From Polytrichum commune (lineage: Eukaryota > Streptophyta > Polytrichopsida > Polytrichales > Polytrichaceae): a DNA stretch of 64,000 nt. This document shows positions 1 to 57,940 of the stretch, piece by piece (position 1 is the first letter of the stretch; every line of letters starts with the position of its first letter). Where the stretch lies: NCBI GenBank assembly GCA_950295325.1, contig OX485807.1, positions 14,597,001-14,661,000 of the forward strand, written 5' to 3'. The notes beneath the pieces are model-generated. The model did no database searches, was not told the DNA's origin, and saw only the letters and a program-made list of their open reading frames with translations. The position numbers and the translations under genes are program-made.

Positions 1-2946
1 ATATATGCAAGTATAGGAATACTTGCTCGTTGCACTTGGATTCAGTGACATGATATTTTTGTGGCCTTTTGTTATGATAAGCTTATGTACTTTAGATAAG
101 TCAGTTTCTTCAATAACAAGAAAAATCCTGTGCAGATGGGACCACATAGTGGGAAGCACATCAATTATCAAAGTTGTTGATGGTCATTAAGATATTTTGT
201 ACATATGCCTTGGTCAAAATTCAGGATAAATATGCAATTGTTGTATGGATTGACTACCTGCAATATGTGAATTCATGCTGGTAGACTCTATCTGCTACTT
301 TAATGTTGACGTTGTTGTGTTTAGGATGTTGTCCTATAAATTGTCTCTCTTGTAGAGGTTGCTCTCAGGGTTTAGGGTTTAGGGCAACCTCCTTGATCAC
401 AAAATTACAAGAGTTACTCAATGTTGTTTAGTTGAAAAGCATGCCTTTTGTTGAGCACAACTTTGATGATGAGAGCAAATATTCTCAAATTACAAATAAG
501 TTGTTGATAACACCAATAACAACCACCAATACAAATTTCCAATGTTGGCCTTCCAAAAGTTGCTTACATCAATGTGGATAGAATCCCGTGCTTTAGCTTG
601 GAAACAAAAGGTCTCACCCACTTCACTAAACTCAACATAAATAAGTTTCCAAATTACAACATGATTTACACTCGAGCTTAAGTTGAGAGTTGGAGCTTGC
701 AACTATCAGGAGATTGATGCTTTGATTTGACAATGTTTGAGCTGAAGCTCAAAGTATTCGGAGGTTGCCCTAGTTTGTGCAAATCTAAGCCGGCATTGGT
801 GAAAGTGAGATATGAAAATGGAAATGGTGCGAGGATTATTGCGGTCCAAAGATTCAGGGGCTAGATGGGTTGAGTGGGCCGAACAACGTTCTTTCCAAAT
901 TAGATGCGTCATTTCATTATGAAGCATGAGCTTCGAAAACCGAAGTGCATAGTGTTTCGTGACACTGCATACAATTGCCTTTAGTAGAAAATACAAGAAT
1001 TGTTTACTCGTAAAGTTGCAGGCATTCGTGTATTCACAAAATAAAGATATCCTATTTACCCATAGTCCTTGCAATTTAGAATCAACTAATGAAATAAAAC
1101 TTGAATTGCTCTCTCTCTTTTGATTATGTTCCGTATTGAATATAAGTTGACGTCTACATTTTGAGCACATAGTTGAATCTCATCATAACACATGATTTTG
1201 TTGTCTACTTGTGATTACAATCCTTATCATCTGTTACAAATGAATATGGATGTCATTCTTAACAAATAAAAATTGATCTACAAATGATCACATGCGTATG
1301 ATAGAGTTTTATATCATAAAGTGACTAGAACATGTGGTGTGTTTTCATTGGGCCTGTGGATTATATGTTATTGTCACCTCTTCTAGTCTCTCTTGTACTG
1401 TGTATATCTCCTAATTTTGAACTCATTGTGGATGTAGCGAAGGTTGGGATTCTGAAGGTTAACCTATCGTTGGTAATCCAACTGCATTAGCGTAAAACAA
1501 TAATTATGTTTTGGATTCTACTACAAAACCAACATAGTTCATGATATTTAAGTGCATTGACAAGGTGGAGCATGGACATTACTAGAGATCTTTCCTACTC
1601 GCAAGAGCCTTGGAAGTAGGGAGGACGCTTTCAATTGCCTTTTAGTTCAAGATATCTTGTGAGAATTCGGTTGCGCGTTAAAAAGGCGATCCTAGTATAT
1701 CGAAGTCGTCTTCATGTCTAGGTATGCATTCTCCCTTTATGAAGTTGAACATTTTCTCGGGTAGTTGTCACGTTCCTTGGTGATAGGATGTTGCAAAATA
1801 TGGTTGGATTGTTATCCTTGTCGTTGTCATGTAGATGATGACACAAATTGATTTGATCAAACACAAGGAATGGGAATGCTACATATTTTTTTCATTTTGA
1901 GAATTGCCATTGTCAATACCTAGCTTAGGTTGGTGGTTGAATGAGTGTTGGACTTGAATGAACCATGTCAACCTCTATTCATTATCTATGTTTGGACTTG
2001 GTTAACATGAAGTTGCACAAAATATCCGATGTCAACGGAATGAAAAGTTCAATGGTTAGTTTGTAGCATTATGAAATTTTGTCCATCTCCAATGGTATGG
2101 ATGGGAAAATAGTCGTCATCTCACATAGTGTATGGCTACATGTAATGGGATTGTACCATCCATCCATAATCACAACACATGAAAATTTAGATAACGAAAT
2201 CTCCAATCCAAAATTCCTTAAGCATGGTATTGAGCTTTTCATATCTTGTTTGCTAAGGCAGATGTTTGTAAATTAAAGATCTACGTAAGCCTTACTCATC
2301 TATGCAATTAGCAATAACCATTGTGAACTTACATTTGTTTTGTTTTCCTTAGGCATAGCATAATGAAGGTATTTTGCGAAAGTCCAAAAATGTCAAATCT
2401 TGTTAAACTATTTATGTGTTAGTTTGTTTTTCATGTGACTAATTTTGCAGAATACAAGAAACTTTCTTGAAACTAGAGCGTACCATTATATCAAACTGTT
2501 AGAGCGTTTTCGGGTCATACAATTGGATGCCGATGAAGGAAAATCGATCGCAAAAGTAATTCACATTAATGAAGAACAAAAGTTTGATGTCAAATGCTTC
2601 ATGAAAAAATAAACACATATGATATACAATGATGTCATGGGGTGAGCAAAAGTTTGTCACGGCTGTAAATTAATAATTTCAATACTTTAATAATTTCAGT
2701 TCTTATTTATCAAATTTTACATTCTAATAGATATTAGCATCTACACCTTGTTATGTATTGTCATGTCTTCATTCATCAATTAGTGTCAATGTTGTAAATT
2801 TTCCATTAGAATCTAATGTTTCTTGTGGGTTTTATAGGTTTAAATTCTAGTGAGCTTGCTCATCAACAATTATAGACGATCTTCAAGCGAAGAATACCTT
2901 GAGTATTACAATTTAGATTATTTACAACTATATCAAACCTCTTAAA
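1..2946. other. Upstream intergenic region, no gene recognised
   Basis: This is AT-rich sequence with only short ORFs that resemble no family I know. A short plant-telomere-like stretch (TTTAGGGTTTAGGG) lies near 368-383. The last part should hold the promoter and 5' UTR of the kinase/NB-ARC/LRR gene; an in-frame TAG at 2914-2916 precedes its ATG. A 5' UTR intron is possible but cannot be placed. Confidence 0.5.
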
Positions 2947-5900
2947 ATGGCATATGTTTTGCGGCTAGCAATGGGTATTGTGGAATTTCCCGATATATTA
3001 TCGAGGGAAGAAGTATTAAATAGAAAGCAATGTAAGAATTTTCTTTCCAACTTTCGAAAGGGTGTGGAAATATTGCACAACATCACCAATGGTCCAGCTC
3101 AAGTATTTCATGAAGCTGAAAAAGATTTATTTAGAATTGTGAACAAAGGAAGGGTACTAATTGAAGAATGTTGCAATGAAAATTGGGTTCTTGCAGCAGT
3201 GATGCAATTGAACAATAGAGAGTGGTTCAGAGAATTACTTTTGGATTTCAAATCTTGTTTCCACACATTGTGTGAGATATCTTGCCATTACAATCCCCAT
3301 GAAAAGGAAAAAATTCTTGCGATTAAGGATGATACGACATTCTACCCAATATCCACCAATGCAGTTGAAGAGGACCGGATGAAAATATGTGGAAGGCTTT
3401 CCAAGCATTTGGACTCGTGCAACACTAAGGATTGCAAAGACTGTAGACTTGTGCAATACCTTGAGGAATTTTTAAGGAGTTTACAACACGTTGAAGGTGG
3501 TGAATTGGATAATATTGTTTTTCCTTATAATTATCCTCGCCCGGAATATGAAGATCCACCAAAGAGTTTGGGAGAGTGTAATGGAGGAGCTGTATACTTG
3601 ACAAATTGGTTGGGTTTGAAGTGTGCAACAAAGGTGATCGACATTCGTGATCGTGAGCATGCAAATCAATTTTGGAAAGAATCGAGTATTTTGGGAGGTT
3701 TGAATCATCCAAATATCATCAAGTTTTTGTGTTGTGGTTTTCATGAGGGCAACAACAAATTTGAGCTTGTAATGGAATTTGGAGAGACGACCCTATCACA
3801 ACATTTAAGTGCACGAGGTCATCTGAAAGAGATGGATGCCGTGGAAATTATGTTACAAATTGCAAATGGAATGTGCTACCTTCACGATATGAAGGTAGCA
3901 TATCGTGACCTAAAGCCCAAAAATGTTGTTGTAACTCCATCAAATGATTCGAAATTGGTTAATCTTGAGTGCATTGATGTGAAATTATTGGATTTTGGTA
4001 TTTCAAAGGTGGAAGTGAAGCATTCTCCAGAAGTGCCCACGGGGCGAAACATAGGGACTTTCGGATACATGGCGCCTGAGGCCATGGCCAATGAATTGTC
4101 GGAGGTGGCTGCTTTGAAAGCTGATGTGTTTAGTTTCGGCATGTTGTGTTCCGATATTCTTTCAGGAGAGAAACCTTGTTTTGAAAGGCTTCGTGATTAT
4201 CGTGAGTATATACTTAAATCCGAGAGGCCAAAGCTCCCAGCAACCTATTCAGAGGTATTGAGATCATTAGTGCATGAATGTTGGTCTTTAGATCCATCCA
4301 AAAGACCCACGTTTCTTGATATTCATAAAAGACTTGCAAGATTGAAAACCGAAATGCTCAAAGGTTCGCTTGAGATTACAAGAGTTACAAATGACACAAC
4401 CGGTTGCTTTTGGCAAATTTTTTCATCATGCAATATATTTTTGAAGTGCATGCAATGGTTGCGGTTTGTGCCCCAACTTCACCACTTTGACAATTCAACA
4501 TCAATTTCAAGCATCCAAGAGAATTGTCCAACTTCATCACATGCGTTAATCATGGAGGTAAGAAGGTTGTTGAAATTGTGAATCAAGCCAAAATATTTTG
4601 AATAAAATTAGGAGATGTTAGTAGACCTCCTAAGATATATCATTTGATCATCGCTCACTTTGGAAATGTTGATATTCTTGTAGGTCAACGCCAATAACCT
4701 GAGGAAATCGTTGAATTTGATTGGAGTCCAAGAAAAAATGTCCCAATTGGAGAAGAAACTACAAACGGTTGGTAGTCTAGGAATTGTGGGTATGGGAGGA
4801 ATTGGCAAGTCAACATTGGCTAAAGCTTTGAGTGACCATATCTCCCACCACTTTGATGCAATTTGTTTTGTAATTGACTTGAAGGATGAAACATGTACAT
4901 TTGCATTAAAGCACAAGTCAAGAGACATGCAAGACTCACCTCCTCAAGCAGAAACATTGAGAAAAACACGTGATATGTTGGAACGTGTTCAAAAAACAAA
5001 GAAAATACTACTCGTGGTGGACAATGTAAGCAAGCAAAGTCAATTATGTCAACTCTTGGGAGATAGCATGTTGAAAGATGTTGGCATGAGGTTGATTGTA
5101 AGTTCTCGTGATTGGGAGTCTTTGAAGCAACATGTACCCTTGGCTGGCAAAGTAGACATGCAAACCCTCGAAGGGAACCACCCTATGAGGCTATTTTCAA
5201 GGCATGCCTTTGGGACAAACAAATTATGTTTACCATATTTGGAACATGTAGTTGAAAAGATTGTGAGTGCATGTTGTGGACTTCCTTTGAGTTTGGAGGT
5301 GATGGGCACATGCATGCAAGGGGAGACACGATTGAGAATATGGGAGCGAACGTTGCATAGATTGTTGAGGGCGAGACACGATGGAAGTCCAAATGAGAAA
5401 CTTTGGATGACATTGAGGATAAGCTTTGATGAGCTAAGTATTGAAGAAAAAAACATGTTTCTAGACATAACTTGTTTCTTTTGCAAAGATGTGTCTATAG
5501 CAAAAAAAACATTTCTTAGAATGTTTGATGGGAATGCCCAAGAAATCTTCGACAAACTCCACAACAAATCATTGGTAAAAGTTGACAAGTGGGATCGTCT
5601 TGACATGCACGATCAATTGCGTGATATGGGTCGTATGATCACAGAAACAAAATTTGCGGGAACGCGACTTTTGGATTTAAATTACACCGCTTTTGCCAAT
5701 CATTGTAAACAAAAGGTATGCAATTCGAATTTGAAAGTGCTTAAGAAATATCAACTTCCTTGAGAAATATGTTTATTAGGTAGGATAAGTTGTATCTTGG
5801 TTCTATATATTGTGGTTGGTTATTCATTTTGTCATTTGAAATGGAAAAAAAATCAAACTTATCCACCTTTGTTTATGTATGTAGGGCATAGAACTTGTCC

Positions 5901-6958
5901 AAGGCCTATCATTCAAAGAATTGCAACGCAAATCTAGATATGAAGCGGATGATGACTTCAAACCCATGGAAGAGCTACGTATATTAAATGTCCAATGTTG
6001 TAACAATATTGACGTACTTTCATCTCTTGTCAAGGCATCACCTAATGTAAAATGCTTGAGGATGCACTTTTCATCCCCATATACTATGTCTTTAATGAAA
6101 GAAAATGATTTCATAGAGAAGTTTTGGAATCATTCCCAACAATATCTCCGATCCTTGCGCATATTCGAGGTGTCCAATTGCAACTTATCAGGATCATTGT
6201 TACAAGAAAATTTGGAGGGGTTGTCTTGGAAGGCAATAAAGTTTTCGGATTGTGAAAACATAGAAACCATCCTCAATGTGGTTACTAAATTCTCCACATT
6301 GGAGTCATTGACGATCTCAAGATGCAACAAATTGGAAAACATACCTGAGGGTTTGACCACCCTCTCCACTTTGGAAGAATTAATTTTCTTCACATGTAGA
6401 TCTTTGAGGAAGATACCGGAAGGATTTGGTGGGTTGACAAGTTTGAAGAAACTTACCATGCAAGCATGTGATGCTTTAGAGGAATTCCCTCCCGGATTGA
6501 GCAGCTTGGGTGCACTGGAGGAGTTGATGTTCTCAAGATGTCGGTCTTTGAAGAAGATACCGGAAGGATTTGGTGGGTTGACAAGTCTCGAGAAACTTGA
6601 CATGTGGGGATGCTCTGATTTGGAGGAGTTCCCTCCGGGATTGAGCAGCTTGGGTGCATTGGAGGAGTTGAGGTTCTCAAGATGTCGGTCTTTGAAGAAG
6701 ATACCGGAAGGATTGGGTGGGTTGACGAGTCTCAAGAAACTTGACATGTGGGGATGTGAGGCTTTGGAGGAGTTCCCTTCCGGATTGACAAACTCGAGTG
6801 CATTGGAGGAGTTGGATTTCTCGATATGTCTGTCTTTGAAGAAGATACCGGAAGGATTGGGTGGGTTGACGAGTCTCAAGAAACTTATCATGCAAGAATG
6901 TAAGGTTTTGGAGGAGATTCCTCAAGGATTGAGCAACTTTTTGCATCTGAATAGTTGA
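2947..6958 (+). CDS. Kinase-NB-ARC-LRR immune receptor (PK-NLR), three exons
   Basis: Proposed exons are 2947-4557, 4684-5715 and 5885-6958. Both introns (126 and 169 bp) are GT-AG and phase 0, and all three ORFs stay in frame, giving about 1238 aa. Residues 1-180 are helical and Cys-rich without a motif I can name; a HeLo/RPW8-like role is a guess. The kinase has Lys229, catalytic YRD (319-321, Tyr instead of His), DFG 349-351 and APE 376-378; its Gly-rich loop is degenerate. The NB-ARC has the P-loop GMGGIGKST (573-581), a kinase-2 stretch LLVVDN, GLPL (736-739), FLDITCFF and MHD (845-847). The LRR part has about nine 24-residue repeats. The family senses pathogens intracellularly through an ATP/ADP switch; this combination is known from mosses. 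The start is the first ATG after an in-frame stop. Whether the kinase is active is unknown. Confidence 0.88.
6330..6945 (+). repeat. LRR-coding tandem repeat, 144-bp double unit
   Basis: Within exon 3, two kinds of 24-residue LRR alternate: LKKIPEGxGGLTSLKKLxMx and LEEFPPGLSSLGALEELxFS. Each pair is one 144-bp unit, and units are nearly identical at DNA level (compare around 6540-6600 with 6680-6740). This suggests recent expansion by unequal crossing-over or gene conversion. The conserved Cys after the LxxLxL strand is common in plant NLR LRRs. Confidence 0.85.
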
Positions 6959-7410
6959 ATTTGTGTGGATGTGGTTCTTCGAGGAAGATACGGGAAATAT
7001 TTTGTGGGTTGGTAAATCTCAAGAAACTTTATATTCAAGATAGTGAAGATTTGGTTGAGTTCCCTCCTGGATTGAGCAACCTATGTGCCTCGGAGGATTT
7101 GGATATTTCGAAATGTTAGTCTTTGAGGAAGAAAATGGAAGGATTTAGAGGGGTGATGAGTCTCAAGAATTTGACATGGAAGAATGTGAGGTTTTGGAGG
7201 AGGATCCTCACGGATTATGCAACCTACGTCCCTCGGAGGAGTTGGATTTGTTGCAACATCAATCTTTGAGGAACATACCGGAAGGATTTGGTGGGTTGAG
7301 GAGTCTTTGAGAACTTGACAAGCAAGAATGTGAGGCTTTGGAGGAGTTTCCTCCCGGATCGAACAACCTACGTGCCTTGGAGGAGTTCGATTTCCCACAA
7401 ATTTATCTAA
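6959..7410 (+). pseudogene. Decayed LRR repeats downstream of the receptor stop codon
   Basis: The same 24-residue LRR pattern continues after the TGA at 6956-6958 but in shifted frames. Near 6950 a frame change gives LNLCGCGSSRKI...GLVNLKKLYIQ. A TAG follows near 7116, and later frameshifts precede pieces such as RNIPEGFGGLRSL and ALEEFPPGSNNLRALEEF near 7260-7400. About four to five LRRs were apparently lost from the reading frame. The ancestral protein was probably longer, unless another intron restores the frame, for which I see no clear sites. Confidence 0.75.
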
Positions 7411-8530
7411 AATCCACACGAAAGAATGCATACCTAATTTATTGTCTTTTTATTTCAATTGTCCTCAAATCAAGTATATGTCTCCGCCTTAGGTCATTCT
7501 TGATGTATGTTTGCACACAACTATTGTTTCAGAAGTTGATGGTTTGATTTCTTTGGTTTTATTTAAGAGGAATAAGGAGAAGGAAAAACAAAGTATGTTG
7601 ATCATAACCATGACCACATTACCAATCTTACTTGCCCAACTATAATACAAGATGTAAGTGCTTGGGAGTAATTTTGATGGTTGTACTTCACTTTCTTTGG
7701 TTTTATTTTGTTTGACGAACACTACATTCTAACCCAACCATTTTTTGTCATTCCTTGTAAATTTTTGTGGGGATTATAGATTTATAGTGTTGCATAGACT
7801 GTCACTTCTTAAGTTTTTTTTAATCTTAATTTCAATTATCCATGACAATAGTGCAGACCTTGGACAACTGCCAAAATAATTATAGTTAACTAGATTTTTT
7901 TCAATACATTTTAGGGAGCAACTAGAAAAATTTGAAACCAATTTTTAAAAAAACTATAGTTAACTACAGAAAAATAAGACCATATTGGAGAACAACTATA
8001 GTCAACTAGAAAAAATTCAAACAACTATAATTATGTAACTAGATATAGTTAACTAGAAGAAAGAAAGCGATGTGGCCGCCTCATAGGCTTGCATTTCGGG
8101 AAAGGCCTATAAGCCTCCTCCTCGATTATTAATGTTGAGTATTGAGACGGGCATGCATTCACATAATAAATATAAGACATTAACATGTGTGGTGATGGAC
8201 TCTTTCAATTGGTGGAATCTCTATGATGGCTTTAGGGTGCACTAGGCAAGTACGTTTGAAGACGTAATGAGAATGAAGGTGTCCATCAATAAATCCCATG
8301 AAGCTTAAAATCATTCTTCACATGGTCATTAGCATTCTCTGTTGTGGCCTAACCTAAGCTAGTCATTACAAGAGGAGTGCAATCACATAAAGAAAGCCAT
8401 ATTATGGTATGTGAAATGGAATCATAGCCATGATTCCCCCCCTTTGTTTTTACATATAGAGCCACCAAACCCGTTTCCATGAACTTAAGCAATTTTGCAC
8501 AAGTGTAATAAGTACATGTGTCAACTAGAG
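7411..8530. other. Intergenic, with a MITE relic near 7718-7855
   Basis: No gene is seen. About 7718-7855 resembles, in reverse orientation, the interior of the TACACTAAAT MITE family found elsewhere here, for example the shared stretch TTGTCATTCCTTGTAAATTT. The rest is AT-rich and contains several copies of the short motif TATAGTTAACTAGA near 7880-8055. Confidence 0.4.
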
Positions 8531-12038: not shown

Positions 12039-14211
12039 ATGAATTGGTATCATATTATAATATGGACGGCCCCGTTCACACCATTTGATGGTCAAAGAGA
12101 AGGAAACATAGTAGGCTCGGATGTATTCAATGCACCATTATCTATTAATATTGTTGTCAAACTTCTTGGCTACTCGAATATCCTAAGGGCTGAATTATAT
12201 GCGTTATTACTAGCAATAGAACATACCAAAAAACTCACCACAAACACCTTCGTCTTCACCAACAACCTTAATAATATATCCCTTTTAACACAATATTCAT
12301 TAAAATGAGAGTTTTCCAGTGAATTGAGAGTACATAAAGCAAACTATTAATCCAAGAATGAAATGAAAACCACTGGAAAGTTGTAGAGTACAAGTAAAAA
12401 AATAACATTTGATTTTCCGCCGTAGTTTCCATTAAAATGAGAGTATGTTAAGCTGGGAAATCGACTCATTTAGGTCAACTCAACCTAAATTGACAACATA
12501 TTGTCCTCATTTAGGTCGACTCAACCTAAATTGACTAACATATTGTCCTCATTTAGGTCGACTCAACCTAAATTAACTAGCATAATTGTCCTCATTTAGG
12601 CCGACTCAACCTAAATTGACAACATAATGTCCTCATTTAGGTCGACTCAACCTAAATTGACTAACATAATTGTCCTCATTTAGGTTGACTCAACCTAAAT
12701 TGACAACATAATGTCCTCATTTAGGTCGACTCAACCTAAATTGACAACATAATGTCCTCATTTAGGTTGACTCAACCTAAATTGACAAAATATTGTCCTC
12801 ATTTAGGTCGACTCAACATAAATTAACAAAATATTGTCCTCATTTAGGTTGACTCAACCTAAATGAATCGATTTCCCAGCTTAACATACTCTCATTTTAA
12901 TGGAAACTACACGTCTGAAGTATAATCTAGTATTTATCAACCTAACATGACTTTTAGGTGTCCAAATGGCCAATATTATTTTGAGAGGATCCCACTCTCT
13001 CAAAATATTGAATATCGTGTTTTTTACTAAATCACATAAGACATCCCTTTTTTCAATATAACCTCCAAACAAATTCCTCGTTGTCCTCATCATAGACGTC
13101 ATCAGGACCTCCACTCATAACATCACCATCAAAAAAGTTAGAACACACTCAAATATAGTTGGAAATGATGAAGCCGACAAGCTAATTAAACAATGAACAC
13201 TTGAACCATGTTATCATGACAATCCCTTTTCATCATGTTCGCCACTAAACTCCATATTGGCCGGAAATACCTCCAATCTCAAATACAACATGATGGCTTT
13301 GTATGTAGCCTCAAATGCTATATTGAAACATACTACAAAAGTGCTCTCATATCAAATGCCACAAACACAACACCAAATGTAAAAAAATGGCTAACTAATG
13401 AAAACATTCACCCAAGATGGTCTAACTTTCTTTGAGATGCACCTTGGATCACAAACACCCAACTCACACAAACCTTTAAATTCCGGTATGGTAGATGCCT
13501 CGGAAACTACCATAGGAAACATGTCCTCAAACAAGATATCTCACCAATTTGTAACTTGTGCCTACTCCAACAAAGCCACAACTACCTACACCTCCTCTCA
13601 TGCTGCACAAATAAACACATAAACAACCTCCACACTAGCTGACATACCAAAGCAGTCTACGTAAATAGCCAAGACACTATTAGCAGACCCTAACACAAGA
13701 TGTTGCACACTCATAAACGAGGGAAAACTTAGCAAATGAACACTAGAAGACACCATACCATCATGGCTCCTCCCATGCTCTTGGTACTTCCCACGTTGCA
13801 AGTGCCCCACATGACTACACCCCGATATACTATGCATCCTTGGAGCAATACCTACAACCAAACCCCCATTCTCACCAAACCCAGACCTAAAAGTCCAATT
13901 ATTTGACTTCACATAATGCAGCAATAGATTCCCCTTGGAAGCCACAACAAGAAAACTTGAAAGATACACGGTACTCCTCCAACTACTCACCTAACAAGGT
14001 TGGCAAGTCCTCCCACCCATAATCATAATAGTTGGAATCCGCAACATCATTCATACCCCAATCACCAAGAACCTCATAGACCTTCAAATCCCCACCCATA
14101 AAATTCACAAACTCATGAACACCCTCTCACAATTCTCCATAAGATACTTAACACACATTATCCTCAACAAAAGAAAACTCGAAAAGAAACAATCCCCAAT
14201 CCCACTAGACT
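12039..14211 (+). pseudogene. LINE retrotransposon 3' region (RNase H and C-terminus), interrupted
   Basis: The frame at 12,039-12,300 encodes a decayed RNase H core: IIIWTAPFTPFDG stands where YTDGSF is expected, followed by NILRAELYALLLAIEHT. The domain resumes at about 13,080-13,195 with KKVRTHSNIVGNDEADKLI, the usual end of RNase H in non-LTR elements. Further on, RYGRCLGNYHRKH, a Cys/His stretch (CNLCLLQQSHNYLHLLSCC) and a basic tail ending at TAG 14,209-14,211 match the copy on the minus strand at 35-36.6 kb. Stops and frameshifts are frequent, so it is dead. The middle of the RNase H holds a foreign insertion that includes a foldback element. No reverse transcriptase is seen upstream. 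Confidence 0.75.
12422..12910. mobile_element. Foldback-type element with ten internal hairpin repeats
   Basis: The ends are near-perfect inverted repeats of about 50 bp: GTAGTTTCCATTAAAATGAG continuing to GGGAAATCGA on the left, and its complement ending CATTTTAATGGAAACTAC on the right. Between them are ten units of about 41 bp, starting near 12,469, 12,510, 12,551, 12,594, 12,636, 12,678, 12,719, 12,759, 12,800 and 12,842. Each has the palindrome TTTAGGTYGACTCAACCTAA. A TA may flank each end (TA|GTTTCC...GGAAAC|TA), but no longer target duplication is evident. The element sits inside the LINE RNase H remnant. Confidence 0.8.
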
Positions 14212-29961: not shown

Positions 29962-31272
29962 CTAACGATGCTCAGGGTTTACATACCCGCAATTTCTTTC
30001 TTGGAAAGTTACAGATGCTTCCTCTTGAGAGCCAGCCTGATACTCCTGCTCAAAGGATGAATCTTCAAATAGAAGGGACACAGTATCTATCTCAAAGGAC
30101 TTCACAATCTCTGCAAGTATCAACCAGTGCTCGTCAAGGAAGTGTTCATTTAGATACCGCTTTGCCTCCGAGAGGGACATCATGTCAGGCATGTCCTCAC
30201 TGCTGATAGGCGACCAGTCCAGTGGATTGATTTGGCAGGGTTCCAGATTGAGAAAACTGCTATCAAACACATTCGCCACAGATTGATTGATCTGAGACCG
30301 GGCAGAATGATCCCCAACAGCTGTATTATGCTCAGAGTGACAAAGACTTGGGTTTTTAGAACTTCCTCCTTGCAGCTCAGATGTTTGATCACCTGGAAAG
30401 TCCTTCCGAGATGCTCCTTTGGAAAATTCAGTCAAGAAACGTGCCATGATACCCTCTGTCCCCAAGATACAAACGAGCTCTGCTAGGATCACCCAGTCCT
30501 TGTAGTGGTCATTCAAAAACCTTTTCGCTTGAGAGACAGATATGAAGCTGCAATCCTCAGAATTCAAATCAATATCCACAGGCTTCTCATCCAAGTCTAA
30601 CAGCATCTCAATGATACGCTTCCGAGCATCACGAGCAAAATCAGCATAAGCCTTGACAACACCTGGTTCCTCCTTATTATAGTTGGGCAATTGTTTGCAA
30701 ATTGGAGCAAGTGGCTTATGTGGATGAAGCTCAAACTTCTGAAAGATTTCAGGAGCACAACGATGGTGGTACCCACCAGTTAAGGTCTTGTCCTCACAAC
30801 ACCTTGTGAGAAATTCGTTAAAATCCCTTGCCAAATTCTCATGGTTCTTGCAATAGAAACCCCCATAATAAATTCTGTGTCCTTTTTGGCGTAGATGCAC
30901 TTGTTTTCTACAAACCATAGGGAAAACATTGTTCACTTTAGCCGGTGCCAAGAGTTTCCACCAAAATTGGACACTAAGCAATGAGTACAGATTGGACTTG
31001 AGCAATTGGACAGCAATACAATGAATATATAAGAGAAATAAGGCTCTATGTATTCACTGATCTTATCTATGTATGGCATATGAAAATTGATAAACAAGAG
31101 TATTTTCAATGAGGCAAGAGTGGTCGATGAAAATGATCCCTATAATTGAGCATTTCCTACCTTCTCGCCAGGAATAAGTTCCAAGAAACCAGGCACGATT
31201 TTGATGCAATTTCTTGAAATCCCACTCAATATCAATACCTGAGACCATCAACTGCCAGTATGCAAAGAGATC
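29962..31272 (-). CDS. Uncharacterised protein with a duplicated ~40-residue helical motif
   Basis: The long open frame 31,005-29,962 encodes about 347 residues. A preceding exon, about 31,272-31,161, reads DLFAYWQLMVSGIDIEWDFK to GTYSWRE before a GTAGGA donor, and starts at a likely acceptor TTGCAG, so more exons lie upstream. The exact acceptor of the main exon is unclear; one near VNNVFPMVCRKQ fits the phase. The middle is Cys/His-containing (YYGGFYCKNHENLARDFNEF, then TRCCEDKTLTGGYHHRC). Two similar segments follow: SQAKRFLNDHYKDWVILAEL and SEAKRYLNEHFLDEHWLILA. I recognise no family. The frame is long for this AT-rich region and has no repeats in common with the transposons here, so I regard it as real. 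Confidence 0.6.
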
Positions 31273-43746: not shown

Positions 43747-44852
43747 CAGTGCTCAAAATTGAAGCCCTCATATGAATTTCATTTTGAAGGGCTCTGAAAT
43801 TTCAGCATTGCAATTGAAGGGCATATCTAAATCTAGGACGTCAATGGAAAATTTTCAAAGAAATATAAAACTTATATTAAAATTATACATGATTTGCATG
43901 GTACATGCTTCTAGTACAATGAAATAATGGAGAATCAACTATCTAACTCCACCTCTTGAAGTGACAATGCCCTACGCTTGTTGGTTACTGTAGCGGTTTT
44001 CCAAGTGTCAAAAATGCCATTCCAATCCATAAATTCAACTCCCAAATTGTTTAGGCTAACCCTCATCAATGCATCAAGTGTGTCAAGGTTTAGGCATGTT
44101 CTCCTTTCGCTCTTAACCCAATTCTGCTTTGAAAAACTACGCTCACAAACAACAATGCTAGTAGGGATCACAAGTATGGCTTGCCATAGCGACATTAGGG
44201 TTGGCCAATTGATCTTAAACTCTCGGTCACGGCTACAAAAAACCCAATCTTTATGCATACTTCGGTGTTGACAAGTTGAAGATAACATCTCCACAAATTC
44301 GAGCAACTCCGCATTGGCTTGATCAACAAGAACAAAGCTCCACTTGAAATGTGTCACCAACCAGTTCAACCATTGCTCAGTTAAAGTGCCTCGATCCAAT
44401 GCATCCATGGGATAGTGTTTTGGGCTGAAAAGCATGGCCGCATTAAAAATGGGCAAGTCGGGGAAGCGATCATTTAGTGAGTCAATAACCTTTTGGACGT
44501 ATAGTCTACCAAGGGTGATGCAATCCTCCAACGAGCCCCCTACATCACACCCGGGCATAGAGTCATAGTGCAAAGTATGCACTTTCTCACAACCAAACCT
44601 ATCAACATACAATTCCCATCTGGACTAATTCCCATATGGATTTGAGATCTGGAGCCCAAAGTTAGACAGCCGGAATTAAACGGCTACTTGAGATGATGAA
44701 CAGTACTTGAAGGGTACTATTTATCCAGCACTTCAAGTGAAGGGAGCACTTAGACATGAGGATTATGTTTTGAAGGGTTGTTTTCCTTGAGGTATTTTTT
44801 GAAGTCCCAAAACCCATTTGAAGGGCACTGAAGACTTCAATTTTGAGCACTG
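43747..44852 (-). mobile_element. hAT transposon remnant nested in the pogo-like element
   Basis: The terminal inverted repeat is CAGTGCTCAAAATTGAAG at both ends. The 8-bp target duplication is AGCGAGAG (43,739-43,746) and AGTGAGAG (44,853-44,860), one C-to-T difference. Length 1,106 bp. Subterminal TGAAGGGC motifs repeat at both ends, as is common in hAT elements. The element is internally deleted and keeps only the 3' part of a transposase. Confidence 0.9.
43935..44612 (-). pseudogene. hAT transposase C-terminal part with dimerisation domain
   Basis: The 225-residue frame ends with the hAT dimerisation region: NWPTLMSLWQAILVIPTSIV, then CERSFSKQNWVKSERRTCL and LDALMRVSLNNLG. The known family pattern is P-T-S...ERxFS...K...R. 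The N-terminal BED finger and first catalytic residues are absent, so it cannot be an autonomous transposase. The remaining frame is open and may be recent or once domesticated. Confidence 0.85.
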
Positions 44853-53300: not shown

Positions 53301-55186
53301 ATGGTTTCTGAGAGTTTGAAGGAGAAGCTGCTCAAAGTGGCAGCCACTCATGGAACAGCCACCACCGTGGAGGGCAGCGGTTCGCACAATGGTGGCGGCG
53401 GCTCTAGCAGCATTCCAAGTCATGGAGGAAGAAAAAGAGAACATAAGAAGTTCTTAACTGAATCAGACATCATCGAAAAATTCAAAGGGAAGGCAAGGAA
53501 GAACAATAACCCGAAGTTACGTCGGCGGTTTCTCATTCGTCTCGCGATTGCCCTCCATTCATATGGCAGCTCAGCTTCTCGCACCGAGTACTTACTTGAC
53601 AAGGCGGCCGACCGGTTGGACGTCGATTTAAATATTTCTGTGTTTCCTTCATTGATTCTCATGTCATTTCCAGGTACCACCTGCGTAAGCCTTACACCTA
53701 TTTTCACTTCTGTGTTTCAAGCAGTTGTGGGTTGCACAAATTTGTGTCTGTTATTGCCACATCAGTAAATTCTGCTACTGTTGGGCTTAGAGCATCAGTA
53801 GGGAGCATCGCAGACTAGGTAGTGGTTTTGCAGGGAAACCACGTCGGACTTTGTTTGTGGTCATTAGAAGGTGTGTATCTTAACATGAAAAAGAAGGGCT
53901 GCAATTCCTGCACAAGTGGGGTTTTTGAACTTCTTTTGCAAAGTTTCTTAACCGTAGCAGGGAATGGCAAATTGACACATTACATGTGCGGGTACTCTCT
54001 TTCAGGAGTGGATATTCTTGATCCTGCTCAGAAGGAGATTCACATGCTCACAGTTGATCCCGACCTTGACGTGGATAAGCTCGGTCGAGCAGACGAGCTT
54101 GCAAACAGGGTTGGTAATGAAGGTGCCCCATTAACATTCGCCTACTGGCGGTTGAAGTCGATTGCAGATTCACCCCCCGAATTCGGAAAATGGTGGCGCC
54201 TGTTTTCGTTCGCTCTCTCCGCGTCGATGTCTTCGTTGCTTTTCTTCAACGGCGGTCTCTGGGACAGCCTTTTTTCCGTCACCCTAGGTTTTGCCGTAGG
54301 TCTTTTGGACATCATTGCGTCCAGATCCAACTTGTATGGGAGCGTGCTGGAGTTTACGTCCGCCCTCGTCGTGTCGTTCCTTGCGCGGGTATATCAAGTC
54401 GAGTTCAAGCAGTACAACCTTTGTTACTTTGCGATGGCACTGTCTGCCCTCGTGCAGCTGCTTCCCGGGTTGTCCCTAACCCTTGGTGTGAGCGAAATGG
54501 TTGCAAAGTCGCACGTGACCGGCACGTCGCGTATCATGTATGCTCTCTTCTCCGCCTTGCAGCTCGGGTTTGGCCTCGCGATGGGCGAAAACCTCGTTTT
54601 CTGGGCGCCAAAACCCGTTTCCGGGCAGTGCGTAGCTCCGCCCCTGACGATCTGGGTCAAGCTCGTGTGGTTCTGCGGTTACACATTTGCCTCCAACGTG
54701 TTGTTAAATGCGAGACTGGAGCAGTGGCCCGGGATGGCCTTAGCCTCGTTCGTGGGCTACGTCGTATCGGAGCTCACGAGCCTGAATCTTGCATCCACTG
54801 CCTCCTCTGTGATTTCCGCGTTTGCCGTCGGCATTGCTGGGACGACCTACTCCAAATTCACGGGGGACCTGCCCCTCGTGATGGTCCTCTCCGGCATCCT
54901 GCTCCTTGTTCCGGGTGGAATCGGAGTCCAAGGAGTGACCGCCATGATCGGGGACGACGTGCTCTCAGGCATGGGCTTCGTGTTTGACATGGTGATGGTG
55001 GGGTTGTCCATCACACTTGGTCTCTTGATAGCCAAGATTGCACTACCCAATGCACTCTTTGGTGCCGGCCGATCCAGCAGCAGCAACAAAAGTACTCTGG
55101 CCTCGCAATTGGAGCAAGACCGTCGAGATAGTTCCATCCACCAGCCGAACGAGAGTAGTGACAGTGAGGAGGATATGGCCATCTGA
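53301..55186 (+). CDS. ThrE/DUF1212-family membrane transporter, two exons
   Basis: Proposed exons are 53,301-53,673 and 53,961-55,186, joined in phase 1 with GT-AG sites, giving about 532 aa. The soluble N-terminal part has RLAIALHSYGSSASRTEYL and LNISVFPSLILMSFPG, the start of the ThrE domain. After the intron come GVDILDPAQKEIH and about nine to ten hydrophobic segments, including LVQLLPGLSLTLGVSEM and ILLLVPGGIGVQGV, the two Pro-Gly loops of this family. Bacterial members export threonine and serine; fungal relatives (Prm10-like) are of uncertain function. A solute-export role here is inference. The C-terminus is Ser-rich and acidic (NESSDSEEDMAI). The second exon is markedly GC-rich compared with its surroundings. 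An ATG at 53,301 follows an alternative in-frame region; an upstream start is possible. Confidence 0.85.
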
Positions 55187-57370: not shown

Positions 57371-57940
57371 AAATTCACAAGCTCCTCATAGAAATCAGTG
57401 GCTGGGCTCCACTTGATTTTGACTCTTCGTCGACATCAACAATAGATTCTGGAATCGTTACCGGCCTCTTCTGCACAACTGGATTTGCTAATCATCTCCT
57501 AACCGATTACGAAAATTCACAAGCTCCTCATAGAAATCAGTGGCTGGGCTCTACTTGATTTTGACTCTTCGTCGACGTCAACAACTGATTCTGGAATCGT
57601 TACCGACCTCTTCTGCACAACTGGATTTGCTAATCATCTCCTAGTCGATCATGAAAATTCACAAGCTCCTCATAGAAATTAGGGGCTGGGCTCTACTTGA
57701 TTTTGACTCTTCGTCGACGTCAACAACAGATTCTGGAATTGTTATGACCTCTTCTGCACAACTGGATTTGCTAATCATCTCCTAACTGATTATGAAAATT
57801 CACAAGCTCCTCATAGAAATCAGTGGCTGGGCTCTACTTGATTTCGACTCTTCGTCGACGTCAACAACAGATTCTGGAATTGTTACGAGCCTCTTCTGCA
57901 CAACTGGATTTGCTCATCATCTCCTAACTGATCGCTCATC
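57371..57940. repeat. Minisatellite, 142-bp unit, four copies
   Basis: AAATTCACAAGCTCCTCATAG starts units at 57,371, 57,513, 57,655 and 57,796, spacing 142, 142 and 141 bp. Units share GACTCTTCGTCGACGTCAAC and CACAACTGGATTTGCTAATC and differ at few positions, so the array is recent. The unit length is not a multiple of three, which argues against a repeated protein segment. Confidence 0.85.

Follow-up and report, generated by a model that had tools for sequence, protein, structure and literature searches.

Genes that place a protein kinase before an NBS and an LRR domain have been described from the moss P. patens. In the account of Xue et al. (2012), the PNL class comprises 45 of the 65 NBS genes counted in this species (i.e., 6 complete PNL, 18 PN, 2 NL, and 19 N genes), its genes carry a phase-0 intron at the kinase/NBS border and another at the NBS/LRR border, and PNL, HNL, and TNL genes group together in a tree (PMC3352924). 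Tanigaki et al. (2014) described 17 P. patens kinase-NLs with a TIR-type NBS, which PpC24 also has, and all of the PpC24 splice variants detected in their study terminate where the NBS ends (PMC3991678). Kinase-NLRs are reported to be expanded in mosses and to occur also in monocots (e.g., wheat Tsn1; PMC11218826, PMC10952240); an earlier reading of the present DNA made from its letters alone (referred to here as the sequence-only reading) had called the architecture rare in flowering plants, which agrees with this published distribution. A helical domain followed by a kinase is also found in plant MLKLs, in which the helical domain is described as HeLo/DUF1221 (PMC10951266, PMC8559963) and which the literature treats as a family of seed plants (PMC9950082).

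We analyzed a window of 64 kb (i.e., the whole stretch of DNA under study) and predict that one of its genes belongs, with a probability of about 0.85, to the moss PK-NBS-LRR class (also termed PNL, kinase-NL, or Pkn-NLR), which comprises intracellular immune receptors. Its LRR domain is shortened at the C terminus. We assign it to this class because its domain order, its TIR-type NBS, and its phase-0 border introns are those of PNL genes: we found an N-terminal kinase, a TIR-related NBS, a truncated C-terminal LRR domain, and, as predicted from DNA, phase-0 introns at both domain borders. The degenerate glycine loop of the kinase, the truncated LRR domain, and the stop of PpC24 after its NBS count against the assignment. 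The architecture was given a class name in 2012, and the gene adds one example to that class. Kinase-NLRs make up a large share of the P. patens NBS genes, and the gene reported here has a well-defined predicted model. In scans that reach close relatives only and include no plant collection, two stretches of viral contigs fit the pattern of the NBS exon and five stretches of genome contigs fit that of exon 1, none of them a relative; the exon 1 scan of viral contigs, which reaches close relatives only, gave no stretch.

Gene model and splicing

The features of the locus are as follows.

2947..4557, forward strand: exon 1, with the ATG, an N-terminal helical region (residues 1 to ~190), the kinase (residues 206 to 460), and a linker to residue 537
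2947..3528, forward strand: N-terminal region without an assigned domain (residues 1 to 194), predicted to be mostly helical at low confidence
4558..4683, forward strand: intron 1, GTAAGA..TAG, 126 nt, phase 0, at the kinase/NBS border; predicted from DNA
4684..5715, forward strand: exon 2, with a TIR-type NB-ARC and winged helix (P-loop, GLPL, and MHD)
5716..5884, forward strand: intron 2, GTATGC..TAG, 169 nt, phase 0, at the NBS/LRR border; predicted from DNA
5885..6958, forward strand: exon 3, with LRRs; the stop (6956 to 6958) falls within the fourth 144-bp unit
6940..7400, forward strand: decayed LRR continuation of about three 144-bp units, with two frameshifts and three stops in the unit frame

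The predicted join (2947-4557 + 4684-5715 + 5885-6958) encodes 1,238 residues and a stop, with the frame kept throughout. Each exon consists of whole codons (537, 344, and 358, with the stop as the final one), and both introns are therefore in phase 0. The sequence-only reading had joined three adjacent frames by two GT-AG, phase-0 introns, and its coordinates, borders, and frames all check out; its proposal of a moss-type gene that is spliced to combine a kinase, an NB-ARC, and LRRs, which likewise remains a prediction from DNA, is backed by the domains found and by phase-0 introns specific to the class. From stop to stop, the three frames measure 554, 359, and 357 aa, and all are longer than the longest chance frames (116 to 169 aa) of 20 sequences of 64 kb, which were simulated with a first-order Markov chain trained on positions 2001 to 8000 of the window and read in the three forward frames only. 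The exons have G+C fractions of 0.39 to 0.42, which exceed those of both introns (0.28 to 0.31) and of the flanking DNA (0.35).

Within the ranges scanned, and counting introns of at least 60 nt, an open frame is preserved by 25 of the 139 GT-AG pairs considered for intron 1 and by 21 of the 58 considered for intron 2. When a GTAA, GTAT, or GTGA donor and a TAG or CAG acceptor were required, two and three open-frame pairs, respectively, were left. Since in-frame GT-AG joins are thus common by chance, the weight of the model comes from the match to the published intron positions and phases of PNL genes. Retention of intron 1 would bring in an in-frame stop at 4579.

A tblastn search with the joined protein returned this locus and its tail only (10 rows at an E value of ≤1), i.e., no second copy within the 64-kb window. 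Elsewhere in the window, a 455-aa open frame (53819 to 55186, forward strand) contains a ThrE (putative threonine/serine exporter) domain (E = 3e-40), an open frame at 43935 to 44624 (reverse strand) contains a hAT transposase C-terminal dimerization region (E = 1.8e-8), and a 363-aa open frame at 29962 to 31053 (reverse strand) gave no Pfam match at an E value of ≤0.1. Two tandem arrays are present, one of 41-bp units at 12465 to 12864 (9.6 copies, also matching its own reverse complement) and one of 142-bp units at 57371 to 57932 (4.0 copies, 94% matches). No tRNA and no Rfam family at its gathering score was found in the 64-kb window.

Kinase and NBS domains

The kinase domain (Pfam Pkinase, residues 206 to 460, E = 1.8e-44) contains K229, E245, YRD at 319, DFG at 349, and APE at 376. 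It reads YRD where kinases usually have HRD, and its glycine loop is degenerate (LGECNGGAV, with Cys replacing the second Gly). The NB-ARC domain (Pfam E = 2.9e-25) has its P-loop at 573, kinase-2 at 646, GLPL at 736, and MHD at 845, and is followed by a WHD_ROQ1 winged helix (E = 2.1e-11); kinase-2 reads VVDN, the usual form being LDD. The switch motifs and kinase catalytic residues listed by the sequence-only reading are therefore present, with the glycine loop, the YRD, and the VVDN as qualifications.

Exon 1 matched 2,457 PDB sequences at an E value of ≤0.001. Among the best 60 of these, the top match was 6ka4 (F22L4.1 protein; E = 8.2e-24; 87.1 bits), which spans residues 247 to 467 only, with RIPK1 close behind (E = 2.4e-21; 78.9 bits); 6lba (named Protein kinase family protein) is also among these 60. 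We take 6ka4 and 6lba to be Arabidopsis MLKL structures. Where the kinase of this gene has YRD, 6ka4 shows HGE. A tblastn search of exon 1 against phages gave 40 records, each with <60% identity, and the best 10 of the 40 all align to the kinase region (stk annotations for 4 and no annotation for the other 6). The phage matches were not informative here.

The NBS exon matched 26 PDB sequences at an E value of ≤1, led by Roq1 (E = 5.2e-33) and followed by 7crb (listed as NAD+ hydrolase; E = 1.4e-21) and ADR2 (E = 4.2e-16), with RPP13-like protein 4, an RPW8-domain protein, and NRC proteins lower down. Since Roq1 and then 7crb lead these matches, the NBS is, by sequence comparison, closest to those of TIR-NLRs, despite the fact that the N-terminal TIR domain required of a TNL was not found by Pfam scans of exon 1 and of residues 1 to 203.

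On the basis of general knowledge of plant NLRs, the protein would be held in a resting state by its LRR and NB-ARC domains, and recognition of a pathogen product would lead the NB-ARC to exchange its nucleotide and oligomerize. Oligomerization would gather the N-terminal kinases, which may then phosphorylate one another, or else a partner, to set off a defense or cell death response, while the helical N terminus would pack on the kinase or aid assembly. We give this putative kinase output about even odds. In the work of Chia et al. (2024), a P. patens NLR kinase produced a modest and variable cell death response in N. benthamiana, and mild ion leakage was reported with every kinase tested except a Tsn1 mutant (PMC11218826); experimental proof of a direct kinase role in immune execution is still called for in the literature that we consulted. 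The kinase may alternatively be an integrated decoy, i.e., a bait for pathogen effectors rather than the signaling output. Among the integrated domains that NLRtracker is reported to count in P. patens, protein kinases predominate, which favors such a role, but the kinase here is N-terminal with conserved catalytic residues, and kinase N-terminal domains alone gave the mild leakage (PMC11218826), so that we regard a decoy as unlikely.

LRR array and its decayed tail

The LRRs of exon 3 match LRR_14 (Pfam; E = 2e-29) and are encoded by 144-bp units that extend from 6401 to 7393 (6.9 copies). The array thus runs on beyond the stop codon, and the protein is therefore truncated relative to its own array; a complete LRR domain was therefore not borne out, and the decayed stretch beyond the stop goes unmentioned in the sequence-only reading. 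Within 461 bp, the tail contains the three stops and the two frameshifts, both of the latter being single-base changes. These lesions were counted by eye on the array alignment and its translations, leaving out a gap at the fading end of the array. All five fall in the final 461 of 4,159 coding-like bases (chance of ~1.7e-5 under an even spread), and the 3.7 kb of joined coding sequence upstream of the tail has no stop and no frameshift. The confinement of the lesions to the tail makes the upstream frame look maintained and suggests that selection may have preserved exons 1 to 3 during the decay of the tail. Alternatively, the clustering could reflect mutations that concentrate within repeats, or a tail that had already decayed when it arrived at this place. 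The shortened LRR domain provides a natural test of how much of an array is needed.

The same tail bears on two other explanations, and the alternatives considered in this report need not exclude class membership. The gene may be a young pseudogene that has no functional product and whose decay began when the 3' half of its LRR array was lost. The two frameshifts and three stops of the tail, together with the finding that 47 of the 65 P. patens NBS genes are missing a domain (PMC3352924), fit such a state; the uninterrupted 3.7 kb, set against five lesions in the tail, and the retention of the key motifs argue against it and leave it improbable.

The gene may instead make mainly a kinase-NBS (PN) protein, with intron 2 often retained and the LRR exon a decaying leftover. 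Retention of intron 2 would place an in-frame stop at 5761, yielding a kinase-NBS protein, and the decay of the LRR tail points the same way. There are precedents in P. patens, in which the PpC24 splice variants detected all terminate with the NBS (PMC3991678) and PN genes outnumber complete PNL genes by 18 to 6 (PMC3352924). On the other hand, intron 2 has ordinary borders (GTATGC..TAG), is in phase 0, and lies at a conserved place, and exon 3 encodes regular LRRs in an open frame of 357 codons. A product that is mainly PN is thus possible but doubtful. Since the stop reached by intron 2 retention has a precedent in PpC24, the gene may plausibly yield both kinase-NBS and kinase-NBS-LRR products, and we consider such a mixture the main rival to the predicted kinase-NBS-LRR protein.

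N-terminal region and comparison with known systems

The sequence-only reading had left the N terminus without a domain, and this still holds: a Pfam search with residues 1 to 203 gave no family above its cutoff, the sole row being SPOB_ab (E = 0.12; under its cutoff), and a search of the same residues against PDB sequences gave no match at an E value of ≤10. The search of residues 1 to 203 likewise gave no Pfam match to DUF1221 (PF06760) or MLKL_NTD, with HMMER filters that drop weak matches. The description of residues 1 to 180 as Cys rich did not hold up: they contain 10 Cys in 180 residues, against 37 in 1,058 elsewhere (P = 0.10), which is not significant, and Cys richness was therefore rejected as a firm feature.

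In a single-sequence AlphaFold2 model of residues 1 to 194 (mean pLDDT, 44.0), the longer predicted helices lie at residues 27 to 48, 51 to 77, 91 to 113, 139 to 154, and 167 to 180. The corresponding model of exon 1 has a mean pLDDT of 37.3, with values of <50 over residues 156 to 537, which include the kinase. Foldseek searches with these two models gave 121 and 244 matches at an E value of ≤10 and none at ≤0.001; with models of such low pLDDT, none of the best 50 of the 121 or the best 50 of the 244 is named MLKL, HeLo, or RPW8. Since modeling failed on a domain that is clearly a kinase, these fold results say little, and with a pLDDT of <50 over residues 156 to 537, Foldseek neither supports nor excludes HeLo, RPW8, or MLKL.

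The helical N terminus could be an executioner domain of the HeLo/MLKL type, in which case the gene would fuse an MLKL-like module (i.e., a helical bundle and a kinase with catalytic residues) to an NB-ARC-LRR. As in plant MLKLs, the kinase lies behind a region, here predicted to be helical; the reading is weakened by the missing DUF1221 match and by the description of MLKLs as a seed-plant family, and we consider it a long shot. If true, it would unite a sensor, a switch, a kinase, and a membrane-disrupting part in one polypeptide and would connect NLRs with MLKLs within a single protein; if it also held in general, one would expect direct signaling of cell death by moss PNLs. No description of a HeLo domain in moss kinase-NLRs was found in passages of PMC11218826, PMC10952240, PMC9950082, and PMC8559963, nor in those of the RefPlantNLR paper, with preprints and most subscription journals outside the search.

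The comparison with plant MLKLs provides a lead and not a membership. A helical N terminus (a prediction for this gene) followed by a kinase domain is shared, and 6ka4 tops the PDB matches of exon 1 (among the best 60 of 2,457). In contrast to plant MLKLs, the protein predicted here has no DUF1221 match and has an NB-ARC-LRR attached, and it keeps the catalytic residues, whereas the AtMLKLs are described as pseudokinases (PMC10951266), in line with the HGE of 6ka4 at the YRD position. With the PNL class, the gene shares the N-terminal kinase, the NBS, the C-terminal LRR domain, and the phase-0 introns at both borders (PMC3352924), a likeness of architecture and introns rather than of position in a tree; it differs in that its LRR domain is cut short and has a decayed tail. 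PpC24/PpKNL1 and the 17 P. patens kinase-NLs likewise combine a Ser/Thr kinase with a TIR-type NBS and have an LRR nearby (domains <780 bp apart), but the PpC24 transcripts reported end at the NBS (PMC3991678), whereas the exons predicted here from DNA can be joined to the LRR. In wheat Tsn1, a kinase also precedes the NB-ARC-LRR; however, the monocot kinase-NLRs are placed within the CC/RPW8 clade (PMC11218826, PMC10952240), unlike the TIR-type NBS of this gene, which points to another origin.
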